The notes beneath the pieces are model-generated. The model was given only the letters and a program-made list of their open reading frames with translations, had not been told where the DNA came from and ran no database searches. The translations under genes were made by a program, and so were the position numbers. From a virus, in IMG/VR virus record IMGVR_UViG_3300032093_000068, positions 21,547-85,546 of that record: a stretch of DNA of 64,000 nucleotides. One strand, written 5' to 3'. This document shows, piece by piece, positions 24,235 through 52,387 of the stretch; within the stretch, counting starts at the first letter, position 1; every line of letters starts with the position of its first letter.

Positions 24235-24237
24235 ATT

Positions 24238-25296: not shown

Positions 25297-25298
25297 GT

Positions 25299-25562: not shown

Positions 25563-25566
25563 ATTA

Positions 25567-27984: not shown

Positions 27985-27993
27985 AATCTTTAT

Positions 27994-28605: not shown

Positions 28606-28606
28606 A

Positions 28607-29155
28607 CTAGAAAATTTTAGAACCTAGGTAGATTACTAATCTATCGTCTTTAATGACTTTTTGTATAACTCTATCCTTTAATGTTGATATTACTTTTTCC
28701 TCGGTTATATCAGTCCAATCCTCATTTAAATTAGTTCCAAATAATCTAAAATCATCAATAATAATTATTGATTCGTATAAGAAATAATCATAAATCGATT
28801 TCAGTTCCTCAATTAATGGGCAGTCTTTGTCTCCTTGAGCGGTATCTCCACTCGAATAATGACCGTCTAAAAAGAATATAGTTCGATTATGGATTTTTTT
28901 TATTATTTCAGGTAATACTTGACTACTATCTCCTAAATAAAGATTTATGTTTTTATCATTAATAAATTTGTTTTTTGCTCTGAGGTAAAATGATTCACTC
29001 AATTCGATTGTATGAATTTCATTAAATGATTTTGACATATTTATTACAGTGTTACCGTAATGGGTTCCGGTTTCTACGAATACCTTAAAAATTTTATCAT
29101 CAAAAGGTGATTGTTGTATAAAATATTCAACTTCAATGTATTTTATGCTGGGCAT
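28607..29155 (-). CDS. Class I SAM-dependent methyltransferase (paralogue 2)
   Basis: The 182-residue protein shows the same pattern as its downstream neighbour: VFVETGTHYGNTVINM (motif I), IHTIELSESFY, LYLGDSSQVLPEI, and FFLDGHYSSGDTA in place of the Asp-Ala-His segment, then IIIIDDFRLFG. The two genes probably arose by tandem duplication and have diverged strongly. It lacks the C-terminal extension of the first copy. Both probably modify the glycan built by adjacent enzymes, perhaps at different positions. Confidence 0.75.
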   Translation of the reverse strand: MPSIKYIEVEYFIQQSPFDDKIFKVFVETGTHYGNTVINMSKSFNEIHTIELSESFYLRAKNKFINDKNINLYLGDSSQVLPEIIKKIHNRTIFFLDGHYSSGDTAQGDKDCPLIEELKSIYDYFLYESIIIIDDFRLFGTNLNEDWTDITEEKVISTLKDRVIQKVIKDDRLVIYLGSKIF

Positions 29156-29166
29156 GTTTTAATTTT

Positions 29167-30381: not shown

Positions 30382-31481
30382 AATTTTTCATCTATATGTT
30401 TTAATGAATTAAACACTGTGTTATTATCATCTTTATTGCCACATGCAATTCGTAAAAAAGTGTCATCTAAGTCTAGTTTATCATTTAATATCCTAGTGTA
30501 AATATTTTTTTCAAATAAAAGTTCTGAAAAAACTTTATTTATATTTTTTTTACAATCTAATATGAAGAAATTAGCGTGAGATTCATACACCTCAATATTT
30601 TTAAGTTTTTTCAAATCATTATAAAAATCTTTTCTATTATTTAGATATTTATTCCTTGCAACTTGATATTTTCTTTGGAATTCTTCGTCTGAAAATAACT
30701 CTAAAAAGAATTGGGCTAATCCGTTTATGTTCCAACAAAGGCCATATTTAGAAAATATTTTTTCATTTATCTTAGGGTCGCATACGGAATATCCCAATCT
30801 CAATCCCGCAATACCAAAATCCTTTGACAAACTCCTTATTACGATTAGGTTTTTGTTAGTATAAACATCTTTTTCAACACTATGATTTTTATCAAAAAAA
30901 TCAATAAAACTTTCATCTACAATAATTGATGTTTTATTTAATTGTTTAATAATATATTTTATATCTTCCTTTAATAAAATTGTTCCGGTTGGGTTGTTGG
31001 GGTTAACTATAATTAATACCTCAACATTATTTTTTTTACAGAATTCAACCAATTCTTTTTTATCAACATTAAAATTATTCTCCTTGTAGGTTTTAAAAAA
31101 AACTATATTTTCCATATCATACTCGTAATATGATGAAAATGTAGGGGTAATAACACATTTTTTTTTACCTTCGAATTCCCTCATTATTAATTCAATTAAT
31201 TGGATCGCCCCGTTACCTAGTAGTATGTATTCAGGATTTATATTCAAAGTTTTTGATAAAATTTCCGAAAGAATTTTATTCTGTGGTGGGTAGTATTTGA
31301 TATAATCTGTTATGTCGTGAGATTTAAAATTCTCCATAAATAATTCAAAAGCATATGGATTACATAAAAAACACGCATCAACTTCTATATTCAAGTTTAA
31401 AAATTTTTTTATTTCAAAAACTGATGGAGAATGTAAACCTGAATTGGATTTTAATTCTAAAAATTTTTCATAATTATTCAT
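30378..31481 (-). CDS. PLP-dependent aminotransferase/decarboxylase, HisC/CobD-like
   Basis: This is a fold-type I PLP enzyme of 367 residues. It shows ILLGNGAIQLIELIMREF (cofactor phosphate-binding region), VNPNNPTGTILL, SIIVDESFIDFF with the pyridine-nitrogen Asp, and the Schiff-base Lys in IRSLSKDFGIAGLRLGY. The pattern is that of histidinol-phosphate aminotransferases and threonine-phosphate decarboxylases. In surface-glycan clusters such enzymes can supply amino-alcohol phosphate decorations, which would fit the neighbouring CapK-like ligase and HAD phosphatase domain, but this is inference. It overlaps both neighbours by 4 bases, so it is part of one operon. Confidence 0.8.
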   Translation of the reverse strand: MNNYEKFLELKSNSGLHSPSVFEIKKFLNLNIEVDACFLCNPYAFELFMENFKSHDITDYIKYYPPQNKILSEILSKTLNINPEYILLGNGAIQLIELIMREFEGKKKCVITPTFSSYYEYDMENIVFFKTYKENNFNVDKKELVEFCKKNNVEVLIIVNPNNPTGTILLKEDIKYIIKQLNKTSIIVDESFIDFFDKNHSVEKDVYTNKNLIVIRSLSKDFGIAGLRLGYSVCDPKINEKIFSKYGLCWNINGLAQFFLELFSDEEFQRKYQVARNKYLNNRKDFYNDLKKLKNIEVYESHANFFILDCKKNINKVFSELLFEKNIYTRILNDKLDLDDTFLRIACGNKDDNNTVFNSLKHIDEKL

Positions 31482-32812
31482 ATTAACGATATGGTTTTTA
31501 ATTTGTTGGATTTGATATCACGTTCCAATTGTTTAACTTTGATTATTTCTATCTTAACTCCGCCCAATCTATTTATCATCTCTTGACGTAATTTATTTTC
31601 AGTATCTGTGTTGAACTTTTCGTTGGGGATGATATAGAACATTAATGATTTATCTTCTTTTCTTTGTATTATTTGGAACATGTCCACTTCATCAATCTTA
31701 GACATGAACGAATAGAAGTTAACCGCCGGAACAAACGAATTTGAATCAGTAACAAGCATATCTCCATTTCTCCCTTCAATGTCCAATATACTTTTTGGGT
31801 ATGGGTTATTTAACTCACAAGTATTATTAAACAATACTTTATCATTAGTTTTGTACCTTATTAACGGCATTACTTCATTATAAAATCCGGTTCCAATTAT
31901 TATTGAATTTTCATCATACTCATTTAATCCATATAATAAATTTTCTTTATAGAAATCATTTTCATAATCTTGATGTGCAAATGATACTTTTTCTACTTGA
32001 CCATAATGCATCTTAATTTCAATACCTAAATTATCTTTGATTTTTGTCCTCCAATATGGTAAACATACTTCAGAAGCCCCGTGTAGATGGGTGACATGTT
32101 TCAAACGTAAACCATATTTATTACATAAAACAGAAAAATAAAATAGTGTTGATGGGTATGAGACCAATATTTCAGTTTTAGATAAATTAATATGGTTAAC
32201 ATAGTCATGGATAGTATTATCATTTAAATTAAATGCGGACATGTAACTACGATTAAGTTCAGGTTCATTAATGAAAATAGGGTCTTTAGGTCCAGGTGAA
32301 TATCTTCTAATCCAAATTGAATGTTGGTCATATAGATTGGCACCGTGTTCATTGAATGCGTTGGTAATGAATGCAGCCTCAATTTTAAATAGGTCATCAG
32401 TTCCAAGTATCTCTAATCTTTTTCCTGTTGTACCAGATGAGTTCATTTTATATGTTTTACCATTAAAATTCTGGTTAATTAAAGAACTAAAGTTATCAAT
32501 TATGATTTCTTTAGTTAAAATAGGTAACAAATTTAAATCATCAAGTTTTTTTATTTTAAAATCGAATCCGTTTTCTTTGAAAAGATTTCTGTAGTATGGG
32601 ACATTATCATTTGCGAGTTTTAAAACTTCTCTTGTTTTTTGTAATTGGTAGTTCTTGGCTTGGTCATAAGACCAACTCTTTGATTTTTTAATCAGTGATA
32701 AAAATTCTAAGTATTTTTTACCGTATCTATATTTAAATGGGATTATCCCATACAATATATTACGTATTGGTTTTCTTTTATTTTTTATGTAATTTCCTAT
32801 TGATGACCCCAT
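31478..32812 (-). CDS. Adenylate-forming ligase, PaaK/CapK-like
   Basis: This ANL-superfamily enzyme activates a carboxylate as an acyl-adenylate; CapK-type members occur in capsule gene clusters. I start it at ATG 32812 (MGSSIGNYIKNKRKP), one base after the stop of the upstream gene, rather than 54 bases earlier. It has 444 residues. P-loop for AMP: YKMNSSGTTGKRLEI. The aromatic/adenine region is THLHGASEVCLPYWR and MHYGQVEKVSFAHQ. The conserved acidic hinge is ILDIEGRNGDMLVT, and a C-terminal small domain with late lysines follows. It probably activates an acyl or amino-acid group for attachment to a sugar made nearby. Substrate is unknown. Confidence 0.8.
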   Translation of the reverse strand: MGSSIGNYIKNKRKPIRNILYGIIPFKYRYGKKYLEFLSLIKKSKSWSYDQAKNYQLQKTREVLKLANDNVPYYRNLFKENGFDFKIKKLDDLNLLPILTKEIIIDNFSSLINQNFNGKTYKMNSSGTTGKRLEILGTDDLFKIEAAFITNAFNEHGANLYDQHSIWIRRYSPGPKDPIFINEPELNRSYMSAFNLNDNTIHDYVNHINLSKTEILVSYPSTLFYFSVLCNKYGLRLKHVTHLHGASEVCLPYWRTKIKDNLGIEIKMHYGQVEKVSFAHQDYENDFYKENLLYGLNEYDENSIIIGTGFYNEVMPLIRYKTNDKVLFNNTCELNNPYPKSILDIEGRNGDMLVTDSNSFVPAVNFYSFMSKIDEVDMFQIIQRKEDKSLMFYIIPNEKFNTDTENKLRQEMINRLGGVKIEIIKVKQLERDIKSNKLKTISLI

Positions 32813-32813
32813 T

Positions 32814-34634
32814 TTATTTTTTTTTAAAAATATAATTTTCTTTATCAAGAATACACACAATTCCATATCCTAATTCTGATAAAAAATTTACAATGTCTTT
32901 AAACGTATAGTTACGAGTCGCCAAAGCAATTTCAGATAGTTCAATACATATTGTTACATCATTGTTTTTTAGATAGGTTGACCCCCCAATTACAACTTCA
33001 TAATCAAATCCATCAACATCTATCTTTAAAATAGTCGGACTTATTCCTGTACTCTCAGTATAGTCGTCAATTGTTGTGAATTCGTACTCACCCTCAAAAG
33101 GGGACATACCCCAAATCTTGTATATCTTTTCTTTTATTTTTCCTGACACAGATCCAAACGCTAATTTATGTAAATTAACATTTTTTATTTTATTATTTTC
33201 AATATTTGGTTTGAGTAAGTCATCATAGGTTTGTGTTGGTTCAAATGAATAAACATTTTTTGTTTTTTCGGAGAATAATATTGTGTACAATCCAATATGA
33301 GACCCAATGTCAAAAACAATATCATCTTCTTGTAAATTTTCTAAAAACCATTTTCTAGTTTGAGGTTCTACATTAACACCATTATTTGCATAATAAGAAT
33401 CAAAAAAATCATAAAACTCAAAAGAAAAATTTTTATCATTAATATTAATAGTAGTTCTACCCATTTTTTCTAATTTTACTTTATTTAATTTACTTTCCCA
33501 TTCTTGTAATGGTTTTATTTTCCACATTTTTTCAGGTAAATTTTGTAAAAACTTAACATCCAATTCAATAACATCATTATTTAAAATCATCTTACCTGAT
33601 TTATTTATTAAAGATTCAGGCTTTCTACAAATATCATAATGAAATATTTTATATTTATCCGCCCAATTAAAAACTTCCTTATATTCTTGATTCATTATAT
33701 AAAACATGTAATTATCACAGGAAGGGGCGCTCCCGACAGGAATACCACACGGGAAAGAATTTTCAGTTAATTTCAACGGTGTCTTAAATACCCACGCATC
33801 GGCAAATTCACCTCTATCCCACGCTCCTTGGTCTATGAAAAAATAATTATCATTAATATACTCAGTTCTGGAAAGGGCTAAAGCACATTCATTACTTGTC
33901 GGGATAAAAAATTCTCTATCAACATTTTTCCATTCATCATTATCAGGAAAAAAAATATCGAGATTAGTTACCGCTACAATCTCATTTTCTGATATAAATT
34001 TTTTACACATCTCGACAAAATTGTTAAAAAGAAATCTTTTATTTACGGGGTCTAATACTAATGTAATTTTATCTGTTTTATATAATTTTTCAGTAAATAA
34101 ATTTTTAAAGTACTCTTCGTTATAAGTAAAAGTTTGTTCATAACAAACCAAATATATTTTTTTTATATTTTGATTATTTATATTTTTATTTATACAATAA
34201 ACGTACTCATTAAGTCTTTCATTATTTGCCTCAAAAAATATTTCACAAAATAAATTTATTTTTTTTTCATTCTCATATGGGTCGAATGATTTTAATAATA
34301 AGTTATTATTGAAAAATAACTCTGAATTTATTCCTTTATCATCTATAAAATGATCCGAATTAAATTTAATTCCCGTTCTTAGTTGGTGAAACTTCAGTCC
34401 GAATTCAATCAATTGGTTATATGTTTGTTCGTACCAATTTTTTTTGGATACGCACCCTCTTGCGGTTTCAACGATTATTTGATGACCATCATCAAATAAT
34501 TTATTTATATAATTTACTCTATTTTTAAATGGTTTCGCGGATAGATAATCCCAATTCCCATCTTCATTTTTTTTAGTATCACATATTGTATTATCCAAAT
34601 CAAACACATATGTCAATTTTTTTTTAACATCCAT
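32814..34634 (-). CDS. Three-domain fusion: HAD phosphatase, middle transferase-like region, FkbM methyltransferase
   Basis: The single 606-residue frame joins at least two recognisable domains. Residues 1-120 form a HAD phosphatase of the capsule-biosynthesis type (TYVFDLDNTICDTKKN, then IIVETARGC), with intact catalytic Asp residues. Residues about 145-370 form a region with VAVTNLDIFFPDNDEW and DAWVFKTPLKL, which looks like a GT-A-type transferase domain, but I cannot name a family. Residues about 395-600 are an FkbM-type methyltransferase: DDIVFDIGSHIGLYTILFSE for SAM binding, VYSFEPTQTYDDLLKPNI and ILKIDVDGFDYEVV. The fusion suggests sequential steps on one glycan intermediate. Its start overlaps the preceding stop by 11 bases. 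The reading frame is uninterrupted. Confidence 0.8.
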   Translation of the reverse strand: MDVKKKLTYVFDLDNTICDTKKNEDGNWDYLSAKPFKNRVNYINKLFDDGHQIIVETARGCVSKKNWYEQTYNQLIEFGLKFHQLRTGIKFNSDHFIDDKGINSELFFNNNLLLKSFDPYENEKKINLFCEIFFEANNERLNEYVYCINKNINNQNIKKIYLVCYEQTFTYNEEYFKNLFTEKLYKTDKITLVLDPVNKRFLFNNFVEMCKKFISENEIVAVTNLDIFFPDNDEWKNVDREFFIPTSNECALALSRTEYINDNYFFIDQGAWDRGEFADAWVFKTPLKLTENSFPCGIPVGSAPSCDNYMFYIMNQEYKEVFNWADKYKIFHYDICRKPESLINKSGKMILNNDVIELDVKFLQNLPEKMWKIKPLQEWESKLNKVKLEKMGRTTININDKNFSFEFYDFFDSYYANNGVNVEPQTRKWFLENLQEDDIVFDIGSHIGLYTILFSEKTKNVYSFEPTQTYDDLLKPNIENNKIKNVNLHKLAFGSVSGKIKEKIYKIWGMSPFEGEYEFTTIDDYTESTGISPTILKIDVDGFDYEVVIGGSTYLKNNDVTICIELSEIALATRNYTFKDIVNFLSELGYGIVCILDKENYIFKKK

Positions 34635-35508
34635 AAACCGTCTTTAATGTATCAAACACTTTGAAATCAACATTATTATTAATGAATAGTGTTCCTATAA
34701 AAATATTACTACTACCACCCATAATATAGTCACACTTGGATAGTAATAAAGAGTCTGTTAATATTAAAAAATACTCCTCTTTAAGGGTTAGTTTCTTATC
34801 GACCCAATCGCTATTTAACGACTCCACCCTTTTATAATCAGTAAACAATACTTTTTCCTCACCGAACTTAGTTACCATTAAATCAATAAAATATTTAACA
34901 TCGCACGCGACAAATATTTTATCATAATTATTTCTTTTAAACTCATCATCTATTTCATTTAAAATGATTTTGTAGTACTCATCAGGTGATATTCTATTTG
35001 AAATCGGTTCCCCTTCAGGTTTATTATACGTGTAATGTAATGGTATTCTAACCGTTACACCCAAATTTTTTTTTCCAAATTTACTTAGATATTTTGATAC
35101 GTTATCATTAATTGTTTGTTTTATTTGTATTTTTTGATACGCTTTATTATATTCATTTCTGATATTTTGAAAATATTCTTCTTTGAATATTTCAGGTTTA
35201 CTCCAAAAATGACCGTTGTAATTTTTATAGTATGGCATAATAGTATTAATATCACTATAGACATAGTTATTGTGATAAAATCTATAGTGAAATAATTTTT
35301 TAGTATCTTTATTATCCACAAATCCCATATTAGGTTGTTCAAAAAACAAATCCCATAGATTATGATCTAAGGTGTTCTTACAAGTCCAATCAACATAAAT
35401 ATTTTCTTCATTATATATTGAGTTATGTATCCAGTCTAAAATTATTAGAAATTTAGAAAAAAAACCTCCAGGTAAAGAACCAGCACAATCATTTTCAATT
35501 ATTATCAT
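34624..35508 (-). CDS. O-fucosyltransferase-like glycosyltransferase
   Basis: I start it at ATG 35508 (MIIIENDCAGSLPGG), which overlaps the upstream stop by 4 bases. The track of motifs resembles protein O-fucosyltransferase/nodulation fucosyltransferase enzymes (GT23/65-like). A Gly-rich N-terminal segment, LPGGFFSKFLIILDW, is followed by LGVTVRIPLHYTYN in the position of the GDP-fucose-binding HxRxGD/R region, then KIFVACDVKYFIDLMV and SLLLSKCDYIMGGSSNIF. The last segment is the usual donor-site strand-loop with Ser. The family match is moderate, but the position next to two clear fucosyltransferases supports a GDP-sugar donor. Confidence 0.6.
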   Translation of the reverse strand: MIIIENDCAGSLPGGFFSKFLIILDWIHNSIYNEENIYVDWTCKNTLDHNLWDLFFEQPNMGFVDNKDTKKLFHYRFYHNNYVYSDINTIMPYYKNYNGHFWSKPEIFKEEYFQNIRNEYNKAYQKIQIKQTINDNVSKYLSKFGKKNLGVTVRIPLHYTYNKPEGEPISNRISPDEYYKIILNEIDDEFKRNNYDKIFVACDVKYFIDLMVTKFGEEKVLFTDYKRVESLNSDWVDKKLTLKEEYFLILTDSLLLSKCDYIMGGSSNIFIGTLFINNNVDFKVFDTLKTVYGC

Positions 35509-36407
35509 AACACACAACTAATTAAATTATTTAAATTATTTTCATAAAAAAATTTATATAGATATTTTTTGTAAAAATATTCTTCAGAACCAATGCGATA
35601 TATTGAATCAGTAAACACCTCGTAGTTTTTTTTCACGGATTCTATTTTTGATATGTACAACTCCGGAGATAACTTATCGATTATTTGTAGTAATTCTTCA
35701 GTCGTGCTAAAAGTTATTATACCGTTCAAATCTAAGTTAAAAACTTTTTTTATTTGTTCATCATCATGGCTACCACCCCAATAAATTGGGATTGTTCCCG
35801 CCCAATAAGGCTCCATTATTTTTTCACTAAAATAATAGTCATAGTCATCATTTTCCACTATCAAAGTAAACATATAATCTTTATATGCTAGAACTCGTTC
35901 TAATTGAGGAAACGGACTGTTTGTTCCTGTTCCCATTTGATTGACTCTACCTCCTAAAATTTTACCTAATTCATGTCTGTAGTTGTGACCCTTTGTTGCT
36001 CTTTTGTTAGAGTACGCGAAACTTATTAATTTTTCTTTGTTTTCGTAAAAATTGACATGTTCATCCGGAAAGTGCCTTCTCCAACTCGCAGGAATTACAA
36101 AGAGATATTTTTTTGGATTTTTTATGATTAAATTTTTATCATGTGTAAATATATAATCATATTTTTTTTCAACTCCCTCCAAAAATGAAATGTCATAAGG
36201 GATTATCGATTTCGATTCACATAACCAAGCGATGTTTATTTTTGACCTAACATTATCTACCATGTTATTTTTTACAAAATTGTCAGTATAAATCGTAATA
36301 CCATCAAAATCCATTTGATTTTTGATATATCTGAAGTCAGTAGGTAAAAAATCGGATGATGATACCTGATGAGAAAAAACGTCATCAAATAAATTTATTG
36401 TGTTCAT
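35505..36407 (-). CDS. Alpha-1,3/4-fucosyltransferase-like (GT10)
   Basis: The 300-residue protein carries the GT10 signature FTLIVENDDYDYYFSEKIME continuing to PYWAGTIPIYWGG, matching the known pattern of Glu-Asn, Glu-Lys and the Gly-x-x-Pro-Ile-Tyr segment that binds GDP-fucose. Upstream, NIAWLCESKSIIP and LFVIPASWRRHFPD fit the acceptor half of such enzymes. It is soluble with no membrane anchor, like bacterial GT10. It would transfer fucose (or a related GDP-sugar such as L-galactose made from GDP-mannose) onto a glycan. It overlaps the next gene by 4 bases and follows the GT11 gene by 7 bases. Confidence 0.88.
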   Translation of the reverse strand: MNTINLFDDVFSHQVSSSDFLPTDFRYIKNQMDFDGITIYTDNFVKNNMVDNVRSKINIAWLCESKSIIPYDISFLEGVEKKYDYIFTHDKNLIIKNPKKYLFVIPASWRRHFPDEHVNFYENKEKLISFAYSNKRATKGHNYRHELGKILGGRVNQMGTGTNSPFPQLERVLAYKDYMFTLIVENDDYDYYFSEKIMEPYWAGTIPIYWGGSHDDEQIKKVFNLDLNGIITFSTTEELLQIIDKLSPELYISKIESVKKNYEVFTDSIYRIGSEEYFYKKYLYKFFYENNLNNLISCVL

Positions 36408-36414
36408 ATTAATT

Positions 36415-37227
36415 TTAATTTGTTATCAATTCACCATTGTGGTGATAAACTTTTATTAACTCCCAATCTTTTTCGAAAATATCTGCAAAGTAGTTTGGTC
36501 CACTTGGGCCAAACCAAATAGATGGGGCTACAACTCTTTTGTTTGCGTTTTTATTCAAAAAAGCACCCCACCAAGAGAATGTTGAATTTGAAATTATGTT
36601 ATGATTACAAAGACTCATAATCCATATCTCAATATAATCCTCCTCATTTACTACTGTTGAGTTAGGTAGAGTTAAATTACTATTAACCCAATCTTTATCA
36701 TCTGTAAAAATGAATATATGGGAAATATTCCCAAAAACAGAAAGAGACTTTTCAATATATGATTTTGAAACTGACGGGTGGACATCAGGAAAATTTTTGT
36801 AGTCTCCCCTTCTGACGTGTAAAGACAGTGTATTACCTAAATTAATTTGAGGGTATTTTTCAATTAAATAACTTTTAGTAATATCATCAACTTCAAATAA
36901 ATTTTTTATTTCATTACTGTAATTCAAAAAATTTTTAGAACTTTGGTAATATCCGTAAAACTCTATTGGTTTATCCCAAATAATGGTCTTTTCTTCATAA
37001 AACCAATTAGGTTCTATATATGTTTTGTATCCAGATAGTTCACTTTTAAAAACTAACTTTCTAAAAATATTTGATACATAATGAGATGTATTTTTACCTT
37101 GGAGGTGTGTTGAGGAAACGGGCTTGAAAAAACAATCTATGTTTTCTTTCAAAGATTGGGAATATGCGTTTGCGATTTGGAACATTTGGTTCCCTAACCC
37201 ACCCATTAAATGCGCTGTTGTATACAT
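36415..37227 (-). CDS. Alpha-1,2-fucosyltransferase-like (GT11)
   Basis: This 270-residue GT-B enzyme of family GT11 has the N-terminal MGGLGNQMFQIANAYS, the donor motif SLHVRRGDYKNF (the HxRRxD signature), and NHNIISNSTFSWWGAFLN near the C-terminus, all diagnostic of alpha-1,2-fucosyltransferases. The expected donor is GDP-fucose. No GDP-fucose synthesis genes are visible in this window, so the donor would come from the host or genes elsewhere. It belongs to the same leftward operon as the GT10 enzyme. Confidence 0.92.
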   Translation of the reverse strand: MYTTAHLMGGLGNQMFQIANAYSQSLKENIDCFFKPVSSTHLQGKNTSHYVSNIFRKLVFKSELSGYKTYIEPNWFYEEKTIIWDKPIEFYGYYQSSKNFLNYSNEIKNLFEVDDITKSYLIEKYPQINLGNTLSLHVRRGDYKNFPDVHPSVSKSYIEKSLSVFGNISHIFIFTDDKDWVNSNLTLPNSTVVNEEDYIEIWIMSLCNHNIISNSTFSWWGAFLNKNANKRVVAPSIWFGPSGPNYFADIFEKDWELIKVYHHNGELITN

Positions 37228-37233
37228 ATGTTA

Positions 37234-37857
37234 TTATTTTATTAACCAATTATAATCCATTATTGAATTTTGTATATCAGAATAAGTAACAATTTGAGAT
37301 GTCAAGTTTGGGACACTTGAGTATGCGTTATATTTTCTTTGTAAATTAGCCATCATAACATCATTTTCAGTTTCAAAATTTAATAGATTAAATATCAACT
37401 CTTCGAAAACATGTGACTTGAGTAAAACACAATGCGCTGAATAACTATTGTTTAGTTTTATACATTTCTCATTCACGGTTTTAGTTTTTTCGCCGATATG
37501 GTAATTATGATTGGCTCCAAAATACATCATATCCCAATCTTTTGGAACATTGATCACGTAATTATGTAATTTTTCATTAAAACTTTCAACAAAAACACAA
37601 TCATCCTCAATTATAATAATATCTTCCTTATTCTCATTTTTCCAATCTATATAAATGTTGATGTATGTATTAATCAATCCAAACATGCCATCAGTAAGTT
37701 TTGTTGTATTTTTTAATTTCTTCCCATTTATTGCCTCAATAAATGTATAATTGATACAATTAATTTTTTTTAATTCATTAACTATGTGTTTTTTTCTATC
37801 TGTTCTTTCTTTGAGGTTAATAACGTAAACTGAATCTGAAAGTTCGTTGAGTGTCAT
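37234..37857 (-). CDS. GT25-type glycosyltransferase (LPS galactosyltransferase-like)
   Basis: This single-domain enzyme of 207 residues has the typical family start SVYVINLKERTDRKKHI, then TFIEAINGKKL, and the metal-binding motif IIIIEDDCVFVESF. DWDMMYFGANHNYHIG and SAHCVLLKSHVFEEL match the acceptor-side motifs of GT25 enzymes, which add galactose or related sugars to lipooligosaccharide or collagen-like hydroxylysine. The acceptor here is unknown. The ATG overlaps the upstream stop by 4 bases. Confidence 0.88.
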   Translation of the reverse strand: MTLNELSDSVYVINLKERTDRKKHIVNELKKINCINYTFIEAINGKKLKNTTKLTDGMFGLINTYINIYIDWKNENKEDIIIIEDDCVFVESFNEKLHNYVINVPKDWDMMYFGANHNYHIGEKTKTVNEKCIKLNNSYSAHCVLLKSHVFEELIFNLLNFETENDVMMANLQRKYNAYSSVPNLTSQIVTYSDIQNSIMDYNWLIK

Positions 37858-38072
37858 GAATTAACATTTTTAAAATTTTTATCCATTATTTTTTTATACA
37901 ATTCCGATTGATTTTGATTGGCGGTTGTGGAAACGGTTCCATCTTTTTCATGGTGAAAATATGTAAAAAGTGGTTTTGGTATTCTAAATCCTTTATATCC
38001 ATTTTTACCCATCCTTATCCATAAATCATAATCCTCCCAACCGAAAAGTGAAGTTAAAAAAATATTTTCCAT
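37854..38072 (-). pseudogene. C-terminal fragment of a family 2 glycosyltransferase
   Basis: The 72-residue frame encodes only a GT2 C-terminal acceptor segment: FGWEDYDLWIRMGKNGYKG, then KPLFTYFHHEKDGTVS. In full-length GT2 enzymes of this type, a Trp-Glu-Asp-x-Asp segment follows a roughly 200-residue donor domain, absent here. It starts at the base after the stop of the intact GT2 gene at 38073-38852. It may be a remnant left by gene replacement. It could still be translated and might act as a separate chain, so 'pseudogene' is a judgement. Confidence 0.65.
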
Positions 38073-38852
38073 TTAAATTTTTTTATATTTTTTCTGATGA
38101 GACCGAATATAATTCCCATACTTTATCGCATTTGATAAATTTTTATTATGCTCATTGCTAGGTAATGTATTATTGTAATGATATAAAATTTCATCTAAAA
38201 AATATGATTTTTCATTTCCACACATTTCACAGAATGGAAATAAGTAAGCCGCATCACCACAATATGTAAAATAAGAATTCGGGACAAACGGGTCTAATAA
38301 ATCATTTGAATTTAATTTGTGAAATAGAAAAGATAAAGATGTTCTGAAATGTGAAACTGACCAATATTGTCTAGATTGGTAAATTATATTGTCATTTGGT
38401 AATTTTTTAGACTCACCTGGTTGACCATCATTTTTTTTATGTTGAGCCCAAACCATCCATAAGTCTTTTTCTTTATATATTTTTTCAATTTTAGATACCG
38501 CATCACTATCTATCAAATAATCATCACCATCTACAACTCCAATAATTGAGTCTAAATTATTCACATAATTTATTACACTATCATATATATTCCCTACAGG
38601 GTATAATTTATTTTTATTTTTTATAAAAATAACATCTTTGTTTTTGAATTTAAAATTCAATATATCTGAGTCTATACTAAAATAGTTTTTAATTATTTCA
38701 GTTGTTTCATCATTTGAAACATCATCCCTAATTATGACACCCAAATCACTATACGATTGATTAAAAATTGAATCCAAACATTCAATTATAAGATTTTTTA
38801 CATTATATAACGGAATTACTATTATAAATTTATTTGATAGTTTTTTCATCAA
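38073..38852 (-). CDS. Family 2 glycosyltransferase
   Basis: The 259-residue GT-A enzyme has the start KFIIVIPLYNVKNLIIECLD, the strand GVIIRDDVSNDETTEII, and the metal-binding motif IIGVVDGDDYLIDSD (Asp-x-Asp type). The C-terminal half (MVWAQHKKNDGQPGES, SYFTYCGDAAYLFPF) carries probable catalytic acidic residues. The short C-terminal fragment encoded immediately downstream belongs to another GT2 and is not its missing tail, because this protein already has an acceptor half. Its start overlaps the upstream gene by 4 bases. Confidence 0.85.
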   Translation of the reverse strand: MMKKLSNKFIIVIPLYNVKNLIIECLDSIFNQSYSDLGVIIRDDVSNDETTEIIKNYFSIDSDILNFKFKNKDVIFIKNKNKLYPVGNIYDSVINYVNNLDSIIGVVDGDDYLIDSDAVSKIEKIYKEKDLWMVWAQHKKNDGQPGESKKLPNDNIIYQSRQYWSVSHFRTSLSFLFHKLNSNDLLDPFVPNSYFTYCGDAAYLFPFCEMCGNEKSYFLDEILYHYNNTLPSNEHNKNLSNAIKYGNYIRSHQKKYKKI

Positions 38853-40483
38853 TTTAATATTTTTATATATTCATCATTTATTTTACTGACCACATTTGAT
38901 ACATAAAACTTATCAATGTCAAGTGGAGGTGAAAATAATTTTTTTCCTAATATTTGTCCTTTATCATTCACATTGTAGATCCAACTTGGCTTACCACACA
39001 TCCAACTTTCAATAGTCGTTCTTCCCAAAAGTATTCCGGCGGTTTCACTACATTCATGTATATATTTACTCACTTCTAACGTTGGTCCGAAATGTTTTAC
39101 ATGTTTGTTTAAAAGTATTTCATTTAAATAGTTCGATTTATTTTCACCGACTAACCACAGTTCCTTTTTTTCTTTTTCTGAAGTAATAATCAAATCTCTA
39201 ATTGTTTTCTCTCTAAGATAATCAATAGACCCTACAAATAAAATATAATTTTTAGATTTTATATTTTTATTATAAAACTTTGTTTCATCCACTGGATTGT
39301 AAATCACGTCAATTAGATTTTCATCTATTCCAAATTTACTAACGATTTGTTCTTTTATTTCAGGTCTAATCGCGACGTATTTTTTAATACTTGGGTGGAT
39401 AACTGGATTTTCTAAGTCTATAACTTCTGAGTGAATTGTACAAATTTTATCTACATTCGGATATAACATATTTAGCACATCAACAATTGGTTTGTGTTGA
39501 CAGTGGATAATATCAAAATTAACTTCCGACATTTTATAGTATTGGTTTGGTTTTGATAATTCTTGACCTCTTTCAGTTTTTAACGCCCATTTACCATCGC
39601 CCATTTTAAATCCTGGTGCATCTTTAATATTTTTAACTTTAACACCGTTTTTCTCGGCTAATCCAACCAAAGGTCCGTTAGTTTCCGCGGCGACAACTGT
39701 AACATCACAATTTAGTTTAACCAAATTTTTTGATAATTCATAAACATACATTTCTGAACCTGTAAATTTTTGGAAAAATAAACAACCTATTAAAACTTTT
39801 AATTTATCATTTTCAGTTATTTTAACTTTTATCGGCAATATATTTTTATATTTTTCCGCAAAAATTTGTCTATTATATTCCCACTTTTCATTTGTTATTC
39901 CAATCGATTTATGTGTAATTCTAATATTGAACATAACACCGATTTTAACATCTTCTAAGTGATTCTGAAAGGTAAATTCTACATCATAAAAATGGAATCC
40001 CTCAACTGTTTCGTCAAATCTTTTTTTGATTTTGTTTTTGTTAAACGAAATAAATAAACCATCAACAATTGCGGTTTGTTTTATATCATTTTCCTCGTTT
40101 TGTGAATATTTTGATACCCATTTTTTTCCTTCATGTTCGTGATTTACCACACCATACATTTTGGATCTATCTTCCCACCATTGTCCAGATGATGGCATAT
40201 AAGTTGATCCCGCCACACCAAGAATTCCGTATTCGTTATTTTTTTCAAAAGTTTTCAAAAGTTTCTTACCCCAATTTTTGGTATCAAAATATATATCATC
40301 ATGACATAATACAACAATATCATTTGATGATTGGTCAATTATCTCGTTATAAACTTTTGATAACGACTTTTCTCCATTATTTACCTTCTCAATAACCTCC
40401 ACGTTTTTCAATCCGCAAGATTGTTTGAGATATTCTTGAAATTTTGGATTTTCTTCTCTTGTGCTATATCCTATTGTAATCAT
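38849..40483 (-). CDS. Bifunctional glycosyltransferase: GT-A domain plus GT4-like GT-B domain
   Basis: The 544-residue protein has two catalytic-type domains. Residues 1-215 start MITIGYSTREENPKFQEYL and carry IVVLCHDDIYFDTKNWGKKL, a GT-A type domain resembling Glyco_tranf_2_5. Residues about 230-540 are a GT-B domain: VLIGCLFFQKFTGSEMYVYE, FDIIHCQHKPIVDV, LFVGSIDYLREKTIRDLI and ILLGRTTIESWMCGKP, with the Glu of the GT4 donor motif. Such fusions probably add two sugars in succession. The gene lies 3 bases from the dUTPase gene. Substrates are unknown. Confidence 0.82.
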   Translation of the reverse strand: MITIGYSTREENPKFQEYLKQSCGLKNVEVIEKVNNGEKSLSKVYNEIIDQSSNDIVVLCHDDIYFDTKNWGKKLLKTFEKNNEYGILGVAGSTYMPSSGQWWEDRSKMYGVVNHEHEGKKWVSKYSQNEENDIKQTAIVDGLFISFNKNKIKKRFDETVEGFHFYDVEFTFQNHLEDVKIGVMFNIRITHKSIGITNEKWEYNRQIFAEKYKNILPIKVKITENDKLKVLIGCLFFQKFTGSEMYVYELSKNLVKLNCDVTVVAAETNGPLVGLAEKNGVKVKNIKDAPGFKMGDGKWALKTERGQELSKPNQYYKMSEVNFDIIHCQHKPIVDVLNMLYPNVDKICTIHSEVIDLENPVIHPSIKKYVAIRPEIKEQIVSKFGIDENLIDVIYNPVDETKFYNKNIKSKNYILFVGSIDYLREKTIRDLIITSEKEKKELWLVGENKSNYLNEILLNKHVKHFGPTLEVSKYIHECSETAGILLGRTTIESWMCGKPSWIYNVNDKGQILGKKLFSPPLDIDKFYVSNVVSKINDEYIKILN

Positions 40484-40486
40484 CTT

Positions 40487-41110
40487 TTAAAAAAGTCCTG
40501 TTGATCCAAATCCGTTTAGATTTCTATCTTTTTCTTTAATATCTGAAACTTCCTCAAACTCTATCATTGTTCCATTTGCAACGTAAGAAAATACGCCTTG
40601 TGCAACTTTCATTCCTTTCTTAATTATAACAGTTTCGTTTGTCGTATTAAATAGTATAACTTGAACTTCATTTGTATATCCGTTATCAACTGTGCCAGGT
40701 GAATTTAAAACCATAAGACCTTGTTTTAACGCCAAACCGCTTTTGCTTCTAACTTGAAGTTCTATATTTGAAGGTAAGTCAAATCTTAAACCGGTCGGAA
40801 TAAGAGCTCTTCCAAACGGACCGATTTCAATTTCTTTTGTTGAATAAAAATCAAATCCTGAATCAGTTGCGTAGTTATATGATGGTAATACTGCATCCTC
40901 ATGTGTTTTATTTATCTTCACACTTATTGAAAATTTATCAGGTAACATTTCTTTTTCCATCTGCTCTAAATCTAAATCAAATGCATCTTTAACATATTGG
41001 TTCAACTCAGATTGATCTGAAAAATCTTCATCATCCTCAATTCCGAATGTTTTTTGAAGTTCTTTTAACGTTTCCTCAATTTTTTTTAAATCTTCCGGTT
41101 CGGTAATCAT
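40487..41110 (-). CDS. dut: dUTPase (deoxyuridine triphosphate nucleotidohydrolase)
   Basis: It hydrolyses dUTP to dUMP, keeping uracil out of phage DNA. All five trimeric-dUTPase motifs are visible: YATDSGFDFYS, VRSKSGLALKQG, GTVDNGYTNEV, KKGMKVAQGVF and the C-terminal P-loop-like RNLNGFGSTG. The length of 207 residues exceeds the usual 140-160 because of an acidic N-terminal extension of about 55 residues (ETLKELQKTFGIEDDEDFSD) with no known motif. It overlaps the exonuclease gene by 4 bases. It is embedded among glycosyltransferase genes but its function is nucleotide metabolism. Confidence 0.95.
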   Translation of the reverse strand: MITEPEDLKKIEETLKELQKTFGIEDDEDFSDQSELNQYVKDAFDLDLEQMEKEMLPDKFSISVKINKTHEDAVLPSYNYATDSGFDFYSTKEIEIGPFGRALIPTGLRFDLPSNIELQVRSKSGLALKQGLMVLNSPGTVDNGYTNEVQVILFNTTNETVIIKKGMKVAQGVFSYVANGTMIEFEEVSDIKEKDRNLNGFGSTGLF

Positions 41111-41808
41111 TTTAATTCTTTAAATTTTTTTATAACATCAATTAATACTTTGACATCTTTTTCGCAGTATTCTGATATTTCTTTAAGTTTATTTTCTTTC
41201 CAAAATGCATGATGAACTTTTTTTCCCGTTACCTCACCATCTTTTGGTGATTCAACTCCCATGCTTGCGCACATTAGATCAAGTGATCCGATTGCGGTAT
41301 AAGCGCCAAATTGCCATAATTCCTTTGTGTCAATTGCTTTTATTTCCCAAGGTTTTGTATCATAATTTGGTAGAATCGCCGGTGGCATGATTCCATTTAT
41401 AACCATTCGTTTTGATAACATCGGAATATCAAAGTTCTTTAAGTTATGACCACATAAATAAAAACCCAATTTTCCGCATCTATCCAATAATTTTTGCGTT
41501 TCCTTTAAAACAACAGATTCGTCATGAGATGAAAATGTTTGAGATTTTATTTCTCCTTTGTCCGTTACAAAAGATACGCTAACGCAAATAACTTTTGCAA
41601 ATTCGGGCACAAGCGCCGATCTTAACGAAAAGACATAATCAAATGATTGTCCTTGATCCTCAGGAAACCTTTTTTGAAACCAATCAAAATAGTTTGAGAA
41701 TTGTTCTGCCAATCTTGGATACATTTCCTGCAATTGACTGTAATCGTATGTTATTCCAACTGTTTCAATATCAAGAAACAGTATTTTGGATAAGGGAATA
41801 TTGATCAT
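41107..41808 (-). CDS. DEDD-type 3'-5' exonuclease
   Basis: This ribonuclease-H-fold exonuclease of the DnaQ superfamily carries motif I ILFLDIETVGITY (Asp and Glu), motif II YLCGHNLKNFDIPML (Asp), and motif III ISEYCEKDVKVLID with Tyr-x3-Asp, so the DEDDy type. I prefer ATG 41808 (MINIPLSK) with an A-rich leader to a TTG at 41826. Its start still overlaps the 3' end of the glycosyltransferase by 38 bases. The protein may proofread or process nucleic acid ends. It resembles uncharacterised exonucleases of large phages. The extra block between motifs I and II is longer than in DnaQ. Confidence 0.85.
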   Translation of the reverse strand: MINIPLSKILFLDIETVGITYDYSQLQEMYPRLAEQFSNYFDWFQKRFPEDQGQSFDYVFSLRSALVPEFAKVICVSVSFVTDKGEIKSQTFSSHDESVVLKETQKLLDRCGKLGFYLCGHNLKNFDIPMLSKRMVINGIMPPAILPNYDTKPWEIKAIDTKELWQFGAYTAIGSLDLMCASMGVESPKDGEVTGKKVHHAFWKENKLKEISEYCEKDVKVLIDVIKKFKELK

Positions 41809-42967
41809 TATGTTTTTTATTAACAATTTCTTTATACCACTGAGCTCTCTGTTCGGTTACTTTTCTAAGGTCGTATTTGTCTTTAACGGTCTCATATAAA
41901 CGATTTCCCATATCTTCAATCATCGCCGGATTATCAACAAGTTTTTTGATGTTTTTAACCCAATCACTATGATTTCTTGAATCTGAAACAAGAAGCGCAT
42001 TTCCATCAACAAACTGACCATTTTTAATCGCGTGTTTCAAATCAATTGTGTAAGGCCCAACCTCAGATGCGATTAATGCCTTTTTATAAAATCCTGCTTC
42101 AATAACTTTTAATTGAGACTTAACTTGATTAAATAAGTGATTTTTGATCGGAGCGATTGATATATCAAACTTGGAATAATTTCTCGCATATTGTGTGACA
42201 TGCTTTGTCCATACCCTTCTGTAATTTTCATTAATTTCATTTTCAAAAGGTTCTTCAACAAATTTTTCCAAAAATTCTTTATATTCGGGCGATATGATTT
42301 GATAATTATTTGTGAATATCTGTTCATATTTTACCCAAACCGTTTCATGTGGTTTGATTGGTCGCTGTTTTTGTTCTCCCGTTTGTTTATTAATTTCCGT
42401 GATTGTTCCTCTAATATCAAAACCACATAACACGTATTGCAACTTGTCTTGCAATTGTGATAATTTTGACACCATTCCATCTAGCAATGCTAAATCGTGA
42501 AGGTGTGATGATCCTCCGAGCCAACCAACCCTGATTTTATCAGATTTTTCTGTCGGTTCGGTAAATTGTGGTTCATTTGGATCAATTGCGTTTGGAAATA
42601 CAACCACATTTCTATTTATTCGTTTTATCTCGTCAGCAAATATTGATGTTGTGGTTGTAACAAAATCAGGGTGTCTTAAATTTTCCACAATTTTTTCGTT
42701 AATTTTATTTTGACGAATAATATCGTGGATTGGATGTTCTTTTCCTGGCATCCAATAATCATCAATATCAACTATGGTTACAATCCCTAATGATTTTAAC
42801 ATCCTAATTATATTAGGAGTGCTTTCATAATTGTTTGCTATCACTCTATGGATATGAACAATTTGGTATTGTTTCCAAAAATTGATGTCATTTATTTTTG
42901 GTTCATAATCAATATCCACATGAAAATCTTCAGGATATAAATTTTGTAACATTACATGGGGGTCCAC
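41771..42967 (-). CDS. GT-B glycosyltransferase body, N-terminus cut off by an in-frame TAA
   Basis: The 398-residue frame begins at a GTG at 42967 (VDPHVMLQNLYPEDF). Family motifs follow: VHIHRVIANNYEST, IVDIDDYWMPGKEHP, RVGWLGGSSHLHDLALLDG, and NDRA-like downstream elements (KALIASEVGPYTIDL). The frame continues upstream past an in-frame TAA at 42985-42983 to a natural-looking N-terminus from ATG 43069 with the expected first Rossmann strand. Without that segment the donor-domain fold would miss its first strand. So this gene is either interrupted, or expressed by readthrough or ribosome hopping, or restarted at GTG. It overlaps the exonuclease gene at its 3' end. A homing endonuclease gene is adjacent. 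Confidence 0.75.
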   Translation of the reverse strand: MDPHVMLQNLYPEDFHVDIDYEPKINDINFWKQYQIVHIHRVIANNYESTPNIIRMLKSLGIVTIVDIDDYWMPGKEHPIHDIIRQNKINEKIVENLRHPDFVTTTTSIFADEIKRINRNVVVFPNAIDPNEPQFTEPTEKSDKIRVGWLGGSSHLHDLALLDGMVSKLSQLQDKLQYVLCGFDIRGTITEINKQTGEQKQRPIKPHETVWVKYEQIFTNNYQIISPEYKEFLEKFVEEPFENEINENYRRVWTKHVTQYARNYSKFDISIAPIKNHLFNQVKSQLKVIEAGFYKKALIASEVGPYTIDLKHAIKNGQFVDGNALLVSDSRNHSDWVKNIKKLVDNPAMIEDMGNRLYETVKDKYDLRKVTEQRAQWYKEIVNKKHNDQYSLIQNTVS

Positions 42968-46666: not shown

Positions 46667-49600
46667 ATGGCTCAACAAAACATTAATCAATATACATATA
46701 AGAAATTTTATGTTAGCCCCAATTTTTTGAGTTTAACCGATATATCATTAGCGTCAGACGAAATTGATTATAATCAGGAGGTTGTATTTTCGCCGTATTT
46801 GATAGCTCAAACTTATGGAAATCGTTTGCCATTTTATTTTGATTTAGATTCAACAGGTACAACTCAGCAACTGATTTTAGATTATGGTAGTTATAACACC
46901 GATAATATAATTGTTTCTGAAAATTATTATAATCCTGATAATTTAGATTTAAGCTGTTTTTCATCACAAACTTCTTGTGATATCGGACTTACTGGTATTG
47001 ATAATGGTCTTGTTACAGGAATGACAGGTCAGTCAATAACATTTACAAACGGACTTTTAGGTGACCTACAAAAATTTGATAGATTAAGTTTTGATAGACG
47101 TTTAAAATTATTTCAAGTTACCGGTTATACAAACCAAAACATTCAGTTTTCAGGAATTTCAGGTCAAACTTTATATGAAATAGTTTCAAAAACAGGTGCA
47201 ACCGAAGGATATTATCAAGAATTATACGGAGGATTTTATCAAGGTTTTTATAAACTTTTTGGTTATGACTACGATATATTTCCAAGTAGAACAAACAAGG
47301 GTTGGGCAGTTGAAATGGTTTTAAAACCAAGGTTATTTAACGAATATTCCCCCTCTTCAGGTCAAACTACATTAAACCAAATTTATCCTCAAAATAAAAA
47401 TACATTTTTTTATTTTGGTACTAGGGCTGAAAATAAATTTGGTCATCATGCAGATGGTCACCCAAATTCAGATAGCGGTTATACAAGGGTAACAGAAGGA
47501 CTTCAAACTTGTTTAAAAACTTGTGCTTGTTCAGATACAGGCACAACAAATTCAAGATGCGTTGATGTGTATGAGCCGTCAGGAGAAACTATTGTGCATA
47601 ATGTTAATTGCGACTGCGGATGTAATAATGTAACAATTGAGGGGTCTCCTGATAAGGATCCGATATTTGATTCAATGTCAAATGCTATTTCTTTTAAATT
47701 GTGCGGAGATGACCCTACTAATCCAAAAATTGGTGTAAGAATTTTAAGATTTACCGGTGATTGCCAAACAACAGGTTCTTGTGAAACATCAGGGCTTACT
47801 TATGTAACAGGTTATACAATAGATGAACATTGCTCCGAAGATGGAATTTATGATTATTGTTTAACCAAAAATTCTGCATATACAACATCAGAACATTGGT
47901 TTTTGGTTGATATTGTTTGGGAACGTTACACTTATTTAGATAATTGCGATTTATATTACAGAGGCGGTTTAGGTGACATTACAAAATTAGTTTACATTGA
48001 TTCGTTAGCAAATAATTCTGTAAATTTAATTAAACCTCCGATTACTCATGAAAATATAACACCTGACCAAATTGAGATTGTTAGATTAAACGACAAATGG
48101 TTACAAGATAAACATTATCGTAATGGTAAATTAAAAATTTACGTTAATGGTAAGATATTTTATCAGGTTGAAAATGTTGAGGAGATTATACCACGAGGAC
48201 TTGACACTTATAAAGAAAGGCAAGTTGGGGTTCCTTTTAATATATCTTGGGGTGGGGGTACATTAGGACTACGTGAAAATCTAACTTTCTCGGCTTGCCC
48301 AACAGGAACAACAAATGTTTATATTCAAGATCCTGAATTATTTCCAAATAACGTATTAAGTGCAACTTCCTTATCATCACTTACAACAAACATACTAATT
48401 GAACCTAATTTTGCCGGAACTTTCGAGGGGGGTATTTCTCAATTTAGGATGTATGTTTCCCCTTTATCTGCTCCTGAAGTAAAACACAATTTTGATATTT
48501 TACAATCAAAATTTAATTTATTTAATCCTGATTGTCCAAACTGCGGATCGACTTGTTTAGAAAATGATTTTGTTTACAGTATTTTACCAACACCAACACC
48601 ATCAAATACTCCAACGGTTACGCCTACTACAACTATAACAAAAACTCCTACTGTAACCCCAAATCCTACAATTACTCCAACAACAACTCAAACTATTCCA
48701 TCAACACCAACTGCAACACCATCTGTTACTCCAAGTATAACAATAACAAGAACTCCTGCCAAAACTCCATTTGCGACACAAACTCCAACAAGAACTGTTA
48801 CACCTACAAATACAGAAACTCCAACTCAAACTGTAACGCCAACATCCACAATTACCCCTACTGTAACTACAACAAATACGAGAACTCAAACTCCTACTCC
48901 AACTATAACTCCGACTGAAACTGTTACACCAACACCAACTGTTACCTCAACTAAAACAAATACTCCAACAAGAACAGTTACACCAACAAATACTGTAACT
49001 CCGACAACTACAAAAACTGTTACTCCTACAAATACAATAACGCCTACTACAACAATTACTCAAACTCCAACAAGAACTCCCGCCAAAACTCCATTTGCGA
49101 CACAAACTCCTACTCGTACATCAACTCCTACAAATACAATAACTCCTACAAGTACAATAACTCCAACAAATACAAAAACTCCAACTGTTACACCAACAAA
49201 TACAAGAACGCAAACTCCTACTTCTACTGTTACACCAACAAATACAAGAACTCAAACTCCTACTATAACTGATACTCCAACAAATACCCCAACAAAAACT
49301 GTTACTCCTACAAATACTATAACTCCGACAACTACAAAAACTGTTACTCCTACAAATACTGTAACTCCAAATCCTGCAACACCAACCGTAACTCCTACAC
49401 CAACTAGAACTCCGGCAAAAACTCCATTTCCAACTCAAACTCCTACAAACACAACAACACCAACAAACACAACAACACCAACAAATACTATTACTACAAC
49501 TCCAACTAAAACTACTACTCAAACGCCAACAAATACAAGAACGCAAACTCCTACTTCTACGCAAACCCCTACCGTTACAATAACTCCAACTAATACGCAA

Positions 49601-52387
49601 ACAAGAACCCAAACTCCTACAATTACAAATACGCAAACGCCAACTAACACTACAACACCAACACCGACAAGAACTGTAACACCAACAAACACTATTACAC
49701 CTACAAATACTGTTACTATAACACCAACTAGAACTCCGGCAAAAGCTCCATTTCCAACTCAAACTCCTACTCGTACATCAACTCCTACAAATACAATAAC
49801 GCCTACCGTTACAATAACTCCAACAAATACAAAAACTCCAACTGTTACACCAACAAATACTAGAACGCAAACTCCAACGCAAACAACAACTGCTACTCAA
49901 ACAACAACTGTAACTCCAACTATAACTGATACTCCGACAAATACACCAACAAGAACTGTAACACCTACAAATACTATAACTCCGACAACTACAAAAACTG
50001 TTACTCCTACAAATACTGTAACTCCAAATCCTGCGACACCAACAGTAACTCCAACGCAAACAAGAACTCCTGCCAAAACTCCATTTCCAACTCAAACTCC
50101 AACAAGAACTGTCACTCCAACAATTACAGATACTCCAACAAATACACCAACAAGAACTGTAACGCCTACAAATACTGTAACTCCGACAACTACAAAAACT
50201 CCAACTGTTACACCAACAAATACAAGAACACAAACCCCAACAACAACTCAAACTCCAACAAACACACCAACAGTTACCTCAACAGTTACCACTTCAATAA
50301 CTCCAACTCAAACAAAAACACCAACAAAAACTCCGACCGTTACTCCTACAAATACAAGAACTCAAACCCCGACAAATACTGTAACATCTACAAGTAGCGT
50401 AACCCCAACATCAACAAAAACGCCAACTGTTACCCCTACAAATACAAGAACTCAAACTCCGACTTCTACCATAACTGCAACTCCAACAAGAACGCAAACC
50501 CCTACCGTTACAATAACTCCAACTAATACGCAAACAAGAACTGTAACACCTACAAATACTGTAACACCTACTACGACAATTACTCCAACACCAACAAATA
50601 CTGTAACACCTACTACGACAATTACTCCGACTCCAACAAGAACTCCGGCAAAAACTCCATTCCCTACTCAAACACCAACAAGAACTGTAACACCTACAAA
50701 TACTGTAACTCCGACATCAACAATCACATCTACTCCAACTAAAACAATTACTCAAACCCCGACAAACACAAGAACGCAAACGCCAACCTCAACTCAAACT
50801 CCAACCACAACATTAACATTAACAAATACATCAACACCAACAAGAACAGTTACTCAAACTCCATCAAACACAATAACTCAAACACCAACAAGAACAGTTA
50901 CTCCGACTAATACTGTAACGCCAACATCATCTATAACAGTAACTCCAACTAGAACTCCGGCAAAAACTCCATTTGCAACACAAACTCCTACAAAAACGCC
51001 AACCCCGACAAACAGTGTTACACCTACAAATACAGTTACACCTACTATCACAAGAACTGTTACTCCGACAAGAACTGTTACTCCGACAAATTCTATAACG
51101 CCAACAAATACCCCAACTAATACATTAACCCCGACAAACACTCCAACTACAACTTTAACCCCAACTGTAACCCCAAGTCAAAGGTCTTCAATATTGGCAG
51201 ATGTATTGTGTAACTGTAGTGGAAATACAGATAGAAATATTTATGTGTTCTATGACGGTTCAGGATCATATACAGATAGTTTATTACAAGATGTTTCATT
51301 AAGTGTGAGAATGTGGTATAGTGGATTGACCTCAACAAGTGGATGGACAGGTAATTTATATGAAATGATATTGTGGGATGAAAGGTGGGTATCTTGGCCG
51401 ATTTATCCGATTATTGGTACTTTATCAGGTGCAACGATCGGTGCTAACTACATAGATAACGGTTCGTTATTATATAGTGGTATAACAAACGATACAGCAG
51501 TTAAACAAGCAATTAACAACGGGTGGGACTTTAACAACCCTGGCAACCCAGATCCATATGGTTCATCAGGTGTTCCGTTTAATCACGTCGCATTAATTGA
51601 TTTTAGCACAGCGGCCAACTTTACACCTGAAACAGATAGTTTTGTTGCTATTTGTGTAATTAACGAATCTTCGCCTGTTTATACGCAAACCGGATCAACA
51701 TTAACTACCGGTAATACAACTCAATTACCATCTCAGTTTTATATTAATAATTCAGGAGTTCAAAAAGATTATAACAATTATTTAACTGCTTGGTCTTACT
51801 TTACAAATTCATTAGGTAAAAAAGTTAATAATTTATTATTTGTTAATCCTAATGGTAATTTAGTGGAAGGATTCCAAACTGTGGAAGCTCAATCATTCCA
51901 GTTTATTTTGGAAGCGTTAGCATTAATTGAAGGACAAACAAGGACTGCGTCATATTTTTCACAATACAACTTTAACGGTGGGGTATGGCCAAATATCAAT
52001 TCTGAATTAGGAACTGATTGGACTTTTGTAACATTACAAACTCAAAATCCATTTACCGGTTATACGTCATTAACGGGTTATACGTCTTTAAATTCATTGA
52101 ACAAAAATGGAGCTGGACTTAGAAACTTTGATTGGGCTGCCGACCCCACTGTAACTGATTTTAGTGCATCTACAATTCAGAATTCATTTAACAAGTTTTT
52201 CAGCGGAGATAGTAGAGATTGTTACTATACTGACTCCAACTTATCGGGACTTACAATCGGTCAGGTAGTCAAATTATCAGGAGAGACAGGATGCTGGCAG
52301 TATTTAGGTGTTCAAGAAACTGCGGTTACTAAAACACCACTCGCGTGGACAGGTTCCACATATACAAATTGCACGACTTGCACATAA
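46667..52387 (+). CDS. Giant virion adhesin/fibre protein 1 with mucin-like Thr/Pro region
   Basis: The protein has 1906 residues in three zones. Residues 1-640 are globular with a LamG-like sandwich ([53 protein letters not shown]) and a Cys cluster (KTCACSDTG ... CDCGCNN). Residues about 641-1505 consist almost only of Thr, Pro and variable residues in TPTxTPT units, with seven copies of a phrase RTPAKTPF(A/P)TQTPT. Residues about 1506-1906 are globular; [19 protein letters not shown] has a DxSxS pattern that could be a von Willebrand A metal site, and the end has CxxC. There is no signal peptide. It is likely a long flexible receptor-binding or surface fibre. Family is not named. Confidence 0.75.
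48588..51180 (+). repeat. Thr/Pro-coding low-complexity repeat with a higher-order period
   Basis: About 2.6 kb of TPT-type codons (ACA/ACT/ACC/ACG with CCA/CCT/CCG/CCC mixed freely). The phrase encoding RTPAKTPF recurs with its Lys codon at 48761, 49085, 49418, 49742, 50075, 50651 and 50963, that is at 324, 333, 324, 333, 576 and 312 base steps. Synonymous codons differ between copies. Confidence 0.9.

Follow-up and report, generated by a model that had tools for sequence, protein, structure and literature searches.

An 863-residue tract with threonine at every second position in a putative fibre protein of a T4-type phage

The locus described here, from an uncultured aquatic phage, encodes a very long putative surface protein of fibre type with an extensive Thr/Pro-rich tract, and it raises the question of what maintains this tract and what it may do for the virion. 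We analyzed a window of 64,000 nucleotides, which is the final 64 kb of an IMG/VR record of 85.5 kb. The major capsid protein of the window matched those of T4-type phages, with Flavobacterium phages among the closest, and by its capsid, portal, and terminase genes (Table 1) the record is assigned to a T4-type tailed phage. No tRNA genes were found in the 64-kb window. Between the genes for the protease and the major capsid protein lies one whose product has acidic E/D-rich tandem repeats (11162-12679, plus strand), and an HNH/homing endonuclease gene is located near the glycosyltransferase cluster (43032-43955, minus strand). From the proximity of Flavobacterium phages in the major capsid and the similarity to moraphages, we tentatively infer a host among the Bacteroidota. 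Moraphages are aquatic jumbo phages that are mostly predicted to infect Bacteroidota (PMC12619734). They measure 200-307 kb, as compared with 222-322 kb among the larger of the related records, and both groups are aquatic and possess several core glycosyltransferases (PMC12619734). Glutamine synthetase, which has been noted for moraphages (PMC12619734), was present in only 4 of the 24 related records.

The open reading frame of 1906 aa that contains the tract is placed among fibre-like genes and its architecture is modular, two features that agree with a putative tail fibre or adhesin, which may be a component of the virion. A Pfam search with this protein gave no match. Its match to PHROG 15511 was treated as compositional and rejected because the best stretch (residues 1421-1538) lies inside the low-complexity tract. 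The downstream neighbor of 2937 aa is of the same design; it contains several Cys-rich modules of ~70 aa (SSCC...YYIVT...GC) and a DUF5122 propeller with T-x tracts between them, the longest of which has 766 aa. The Cys-rich module had no match in isolated phages. Further downstream, a 536-aa protein (61559-63169, plus strand) carries NTLDxSGI-like repeats that possibly form a β-helix and is without a family match. The last reading frame (63480-64000, plus strand), cut by the end of the window and contig, contains 25-aa repeats (LSAVTFTGDSILVTGLTANTITTDQ) and resembles another fibre.

Table 1. Positions of the features of the locus, numbered from the first nucleotide of the window
Feature	Position	Strand	Basis or details
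Terminase, portal, protease, major capsid (T4-type head genes)	within window		capsid, portal, and terminase genes by phrog_138, phrog_213, phrog_2
Sugar genes: GT2, epimerase, UDP-glucose/GDP-mannose dehydrogenase family, aminotransferase, O- and FkbM methyltransferases	23428..34634	-	
Glycosyltransferase run: GT10, GT11, GT25, GT2, GT2_5+GT4, GT1-type	35505..42967	-	dUTPase and exonuclease genes inside
Individual glycosyltransferase genes	GT2 23428, GT10 35505, GT11 36415, GT25 37234, GT2 38073, GT2_5+GT4 38849, GT1-type 41771		
Modular protein, 1906 aa, putative tail fibre/adhesin	46667..52387	+	ORF
N-domain, residues 1-640, conserved, probable virion-anchoring part with β-rich core	46667..48586	+	relatives, AF2
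(T-x)n lattice tract, residues 641/642-1504, 863 aa	48587..51178	+	period-two Thr pattern
Punctuation motif TPAKTPF, first of seven	48752..48772	+	later starts 49076, 49409, 49733, 50066, 50642, 50954
219-aa higher-order repeat, first copy, residues 704-918	48776..49420	+	match to second copy
219-aa higher-order repeat, second copy, residues 923-1137	49433..50077	+	match to first copy
C-domain, residues 1505-1906, conserved, DxSxS (MIDAS-like) motif, candidate binding head	51179..52387	+	L084, L003/L004
Neighbor of same design, 2937 aa	52709..61522	+	Cys-rich modules, DUF5122 propeller, T-x tracts

An earlier note, made from the letters of the window, had placed a Thr/Pro-rich region of ~860 residues at 48588-51180, and this was confirmed with minor adjustment as a tract of 863 aa at 48587-51178 containing 49% Thr and 18% Pro, followed by N, V, Q, I, R, S, and K. 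Its description of the protein as nearly two-character was loose; Thr and Pro do dominate (67%), but the remainder is made up of 12 other residues and the actual regularity is the alternation. When the phase was assigned locally, Thr occupied 402 of the 430 lattice sites and Ser only 9, whereas the alternate position varied, with Pro at ~33%, mostly every 4-8 residues, and then V, N, Q, R, and I. In shuffles of the same composition TxT was expected 207 +/- 7 times (maximum 235) but was observed 375 times; for TT, 207 occurrences were expected and 41 observed. The phase of the lattice changes only twice over the 863 residues, and the distance of 219 residues between the two changes matches the internal 219-aa repeat. 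The tract is thus more than Thr/Pro-rich, and its real regularity is a Thr at every second residue.

The history of the tract is recorded in its repeats. The two copies of the 219-aa repeat are 81% identical in amino acids and 78% in nucleotides, with a dN/dS of 0.25. The punctuation motif TPAKTPF occurs at residues 696, 804, 915, 1023 (as TPAKAPF), 1134, 1326, and 1430, and the first five copies are spaced by 108 or 111 aa. Between the two copies of the repeat, 102 codon pairs in the Thr phase showed 46 synonymous and 0 amino-acid differences, whereas the 99 pairs at alternate positions showed 15 synonymous and 38 amino-acid differences (Fisher P = 2e-14). The same bias was obtained when duplicated segments were pooled from four tracts, namely those of the 1906-aa protein, its 2937-aa neighbor, and the related loci L084 and L003; the ratio of synonymous to amino-acid differences was 69:7 for Thr codons as compared with 27:100 for the alternate ones (P = 1e-23). 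Since the Thr codons vary synonymously with few or no amino-acid changes while the alternate residues vary, these codon comparisons indicate that Thr at every second position is preserved by selection and that the alternate residue drifts. The synonymous-site test also ruled out a reading of the tract as a DNA artefact. Identical 10-mers in the tract share the same codons at a frequency of 0.63, as compared with 0.41 when codons were shuffled, an excess that reflects growth of the tract by duplication. The claim of the earlier note that synonymous codons are mixed and that selection acts on the peptide was therefore right in substance, although the codons are incompletely randomized.

Relatives of the N-domain are encoded in 90 IMG/VR stretches, and the alignment of this domain comprised 37 rows. 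The AF2 model of the N-domain had a mean pLDDT of 45 with blocks of 70-92. The domain matched A0A6J5L643 in BFVD (E 6e-51), and it had no match in isolated phages. A fold search in PDB returned only non-significant matches to generic β folds, and we therefore claim no fold. The full ortholog is L084, found on a 261-kb contig; both flanks of its tract are ~80% identical to those in the window (dS 1.75, omega 0.08; omega of the N-domain 0.083). The ortholog keeps the lattice (T 49%) over 679 aa as compared with 863 aa in the window, has a filler richer in N, Q, and K and poorer in V and R, and shares the TPAKTPF motif with 108-aa spacings. In L002, the tract continues for at least 397-430 aa before the contig ends. 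In L003 and L004, the protein with a 76% identical N-domain ends at residue 640, and the next reading frame encodes an 850-aa T-x tract followed by a 39% identical C-domain.

Across the N-domain homologs the length of the tract ranges from 0 to 863 residues; other members of the family lack it, have only a brief run of T in its place, or carry 15-172 aa of it, in several separate branches. The domains that follow the N-domain also differ. A VWA domain was detected in L034 above the Pfam cut-off and in L069 just below it, and DUF285 was detected in L060. The VWA domains of these homologous fibre proteins suggest that metal-site adhesion heads have been used repeatedly. The C-terminal part of another fibre-type homolog (L029) matched the papain-like peptidase C1 family (E 1e-5). 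The pattern of matches among relatives indicates that domains are shuffled across the T-x joints, and the comparison of homologs shows a tract that changes in length by in-register duplication and loss, with domain swaps at the tracts.

The C-domain of the window is 80% identical to that of L084, and the D-x-S-x-S motif is kept in all three relatives. No VWA match to the C-domain was obtained in Pfam, and hhalign against the VWA domains of L034 and L069 gave an E value of 0.57 with the alignment at another site. The AF2 model of the C-domain had a pLDDT of 31 and was unusable. The C-domain had no match in isolated phages, and an alignment-based search with it returned only the already known L084 contig.

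As the earlier note had proposed, the same domain was sought in related phages, and (T-x)12 was present in 30 of 32 related records, as compared with 0 for a reversed-pattern control. The pattern extends further, because a scan of IMG/VR for 41 alternating Thr codons identified at least 120 stretches. The listed matches, together with the window, L002, and L084, gave a set of 123 tract-bearing viral sequences, among which the median length was 169 aa and the filler was mixed (entropy >2 bits) in 84. The T-x tract of L276 (IMGVR_UViG_3300021598_001798) has at least 4149 residues, is open at the end of the locus, and has well-mixed Thr codons. An apparent tract of 1855 aa in L321 was discarded, as its DNA is a simple repeat with 149 distinct 18-mers of 1849. 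A scan of the same kind in GTDB genomes returned many Chloroflexi among the matches listed, and the bacterial tracts among these matches had a median of 79 aa.

It is rather likely that the tract serves as a tether, extended and variable in length, within a putative fibre or adhesin of modular build. The N-domain would attach to the virion, the C-domain with its conserved, metal-site-like DxSxS motif would act as an exchangeable binding head, and the (T-x) lattice would keep this head distant from the particle. The β-branched Thr alternating with Pro, Val, Asn, or Gln would disfavor helix formation and globular folding and keep the chain soluble and stretched out. At an assumed 0.25-0.31 nm per residue, the contour of the tether would be ~215-270 nm. 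Cytoplasmic glycosyltransferases of the phage might in addition O-glycosylate the Thr row, although the tether would not depend on this. A plain flexible linker would not need Thr in preference to Ser or Gly at nearly every lattice site, and the constraint on Thr may therefore have a cause beyond tether function. An unselected low-complexity tract expanded by slippage and duplication would agree with the highly variable length, the absence of the tract in many homologs, and the clear duplication history, but such neutral growth is hardly credible when the Thr codons differ by 46 synonymous and 0 amino-acid changes and L084 keeps the lattice despite flanks whose synonymous sites are nearly saturated. 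Alternatively, the Thr row might form an ordered β structure, in which Thr on one face pairs or trimerizes into a rigid β fibre or binds ice or carbohydrate. A β-strand has a period of two residues, and Thr and Val/Ile favor strands. However, Pro at about one third of the alternate positions breaks regular sheets, and we regard this arrangement as improbable.

The earlier note proposed that the phage could carry a glycosylated, mucin-like coat or tether. In the fuller form of this reading, phage glycosyltransferases would O-glycosylate the Thr row in the host cell to give a stiff, protected, and possibly fucosylated stalk or coat. The long Thr/Pro tract under peptide selection, the fibre-like protein, and the claimed large set of glycosyltransferases all held up. 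Thr hydroxyls are strictly kept while their neighbors change, and at least seven glycosyltransferase genes were matched, including the fucosyltransferase-type GT10 and GT11, along with sugar-nucleotide enzymes. The GT1-type gene (41771) is below the Pfam cut-off and matched PHROG 7162 (E 2.5e-48). The sugar gene cluster also contains a PaaK/F390-synthetase-like adenylating enzyme (31478-32866, minus strand) with sub-cut-off matches. Tailed-phage virion proteins are assembled in the cytoplasm, and the tract would therefore be accessible only to transferases of that compartment, most plausibly those that the phage encodes. An unbroken row of conserved Thr hydroxyls is the kind of substrate that such enzymes would require. 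Mycobacteriophages with glycosylated virions are known (cited in PMC12619734). GT11 was found in 5 of 24 related records, including the three with the longest tracts in the fibre gene, but also the tract-poor G008 and G011; many records are fragments, and gene absences are for this reason weak evidence. GT2 was present in all 24 related records with or without a tract; G009 and G010, which lack a (T-x)12 tract, still carry 2 and 7 GT2 matches, and in records of at least 200 kb the GT2 count was uncorrelated with how much tract a record contains (rho = -0.19, P = 0.56). O-Glycosylation in Bacteroidota uses the motif D-[ST]-[AILMVT] and acts on non-cytoplasmic proteins (PMC12871550). This motif occurs 0 times in the tract and 5 times in the rest of the protein, the bacterial N-glycosylation motif [DE]-x-N-x-[ST] was likewise absent from the tract, and N-x-[ST] occurs there 4 times among 52 Asn. 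Many such systems use Ser as readily as Thr, but Ser is nearly missing from the lattice sites (9/430). Many N-domain homologs are without a tract, and therefore a mucin coat is not a core function of the protein. We consider the mucin interpretation rather unlikely, a live rival and not a conclusion.

Thr/Pro linkers occur in bacterial surface and polysaccharide-degrading proteins, and like the tract here they are Thr/Pro-rich and join folded domains. Thr/Ser enrichment in low-complexity regions of such proteins has been described (PMC6821194). The same alternating pattern is found in bacteria, often in Chloroflexi among the matches listed, but these tracts are far shorter (median 79 aa among the matches listed versus 863 here), and the present tract differs in belonging to a phage protein, in its mixed filler, and in being only a third Pro at alternate positions. 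Eukaryotic mucin PTS domains are likewise long, Thr/Pro-rich, grown by repeats, and variable in length. By its sequence, the tract is a long tandem-repeat tract of the Thr/Ser/Pro-rich kind that defines a PTS domain, made of Thr and Pro with almost no Ser; its strict two-residue lattice and the lack of identified mucin flanking domains set it apart. Glycosylated mycobacteriophages share phage-encoded glycosyltransferases with this phage, but their glycans are reported at the C-termini of capsid and tail-tube subunits and not on a long fibre tract (PMC12619734). The tandem repeats of Borgs create disordered protein regions (PMC9879509), and they and the present tract both exemplify rapidly evolving repeats that give disordered tracts, whereas the copies here have diverged synonymously with Thr preserved. 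The feature is best seen as a striking form of the Thr/Pro linker, notable above all for its Thr-specific constraint.

Very long low-complexity tracts have been thought rare in phages; among 102 phage proteomes surveyed in 2019, the longest low-complexity region had 115 aa (PMC6821194). The lattice described here is strongly selected at one residue and is common to most members of the clade and to many IMG/VR contigs. A tentative and rather unlikely proposal is that it defines a separate type of phage stalk with a wide distribution, whose Thr hydroxyls spaced by two residues accept phage-encoded cytoplasmic O-glycosylation. If this is true, virions would bear long glycan-covered tethers, of ~215-270 nm contour here and far longer in other phages. 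The finding raises the testable question of whether the constraint on Thr arises from chain stiffness or from the attachment of sugars by phage enzymes, and it suggests that aquatic phages may alter their reach and exchange binding heads by means of such tracts.
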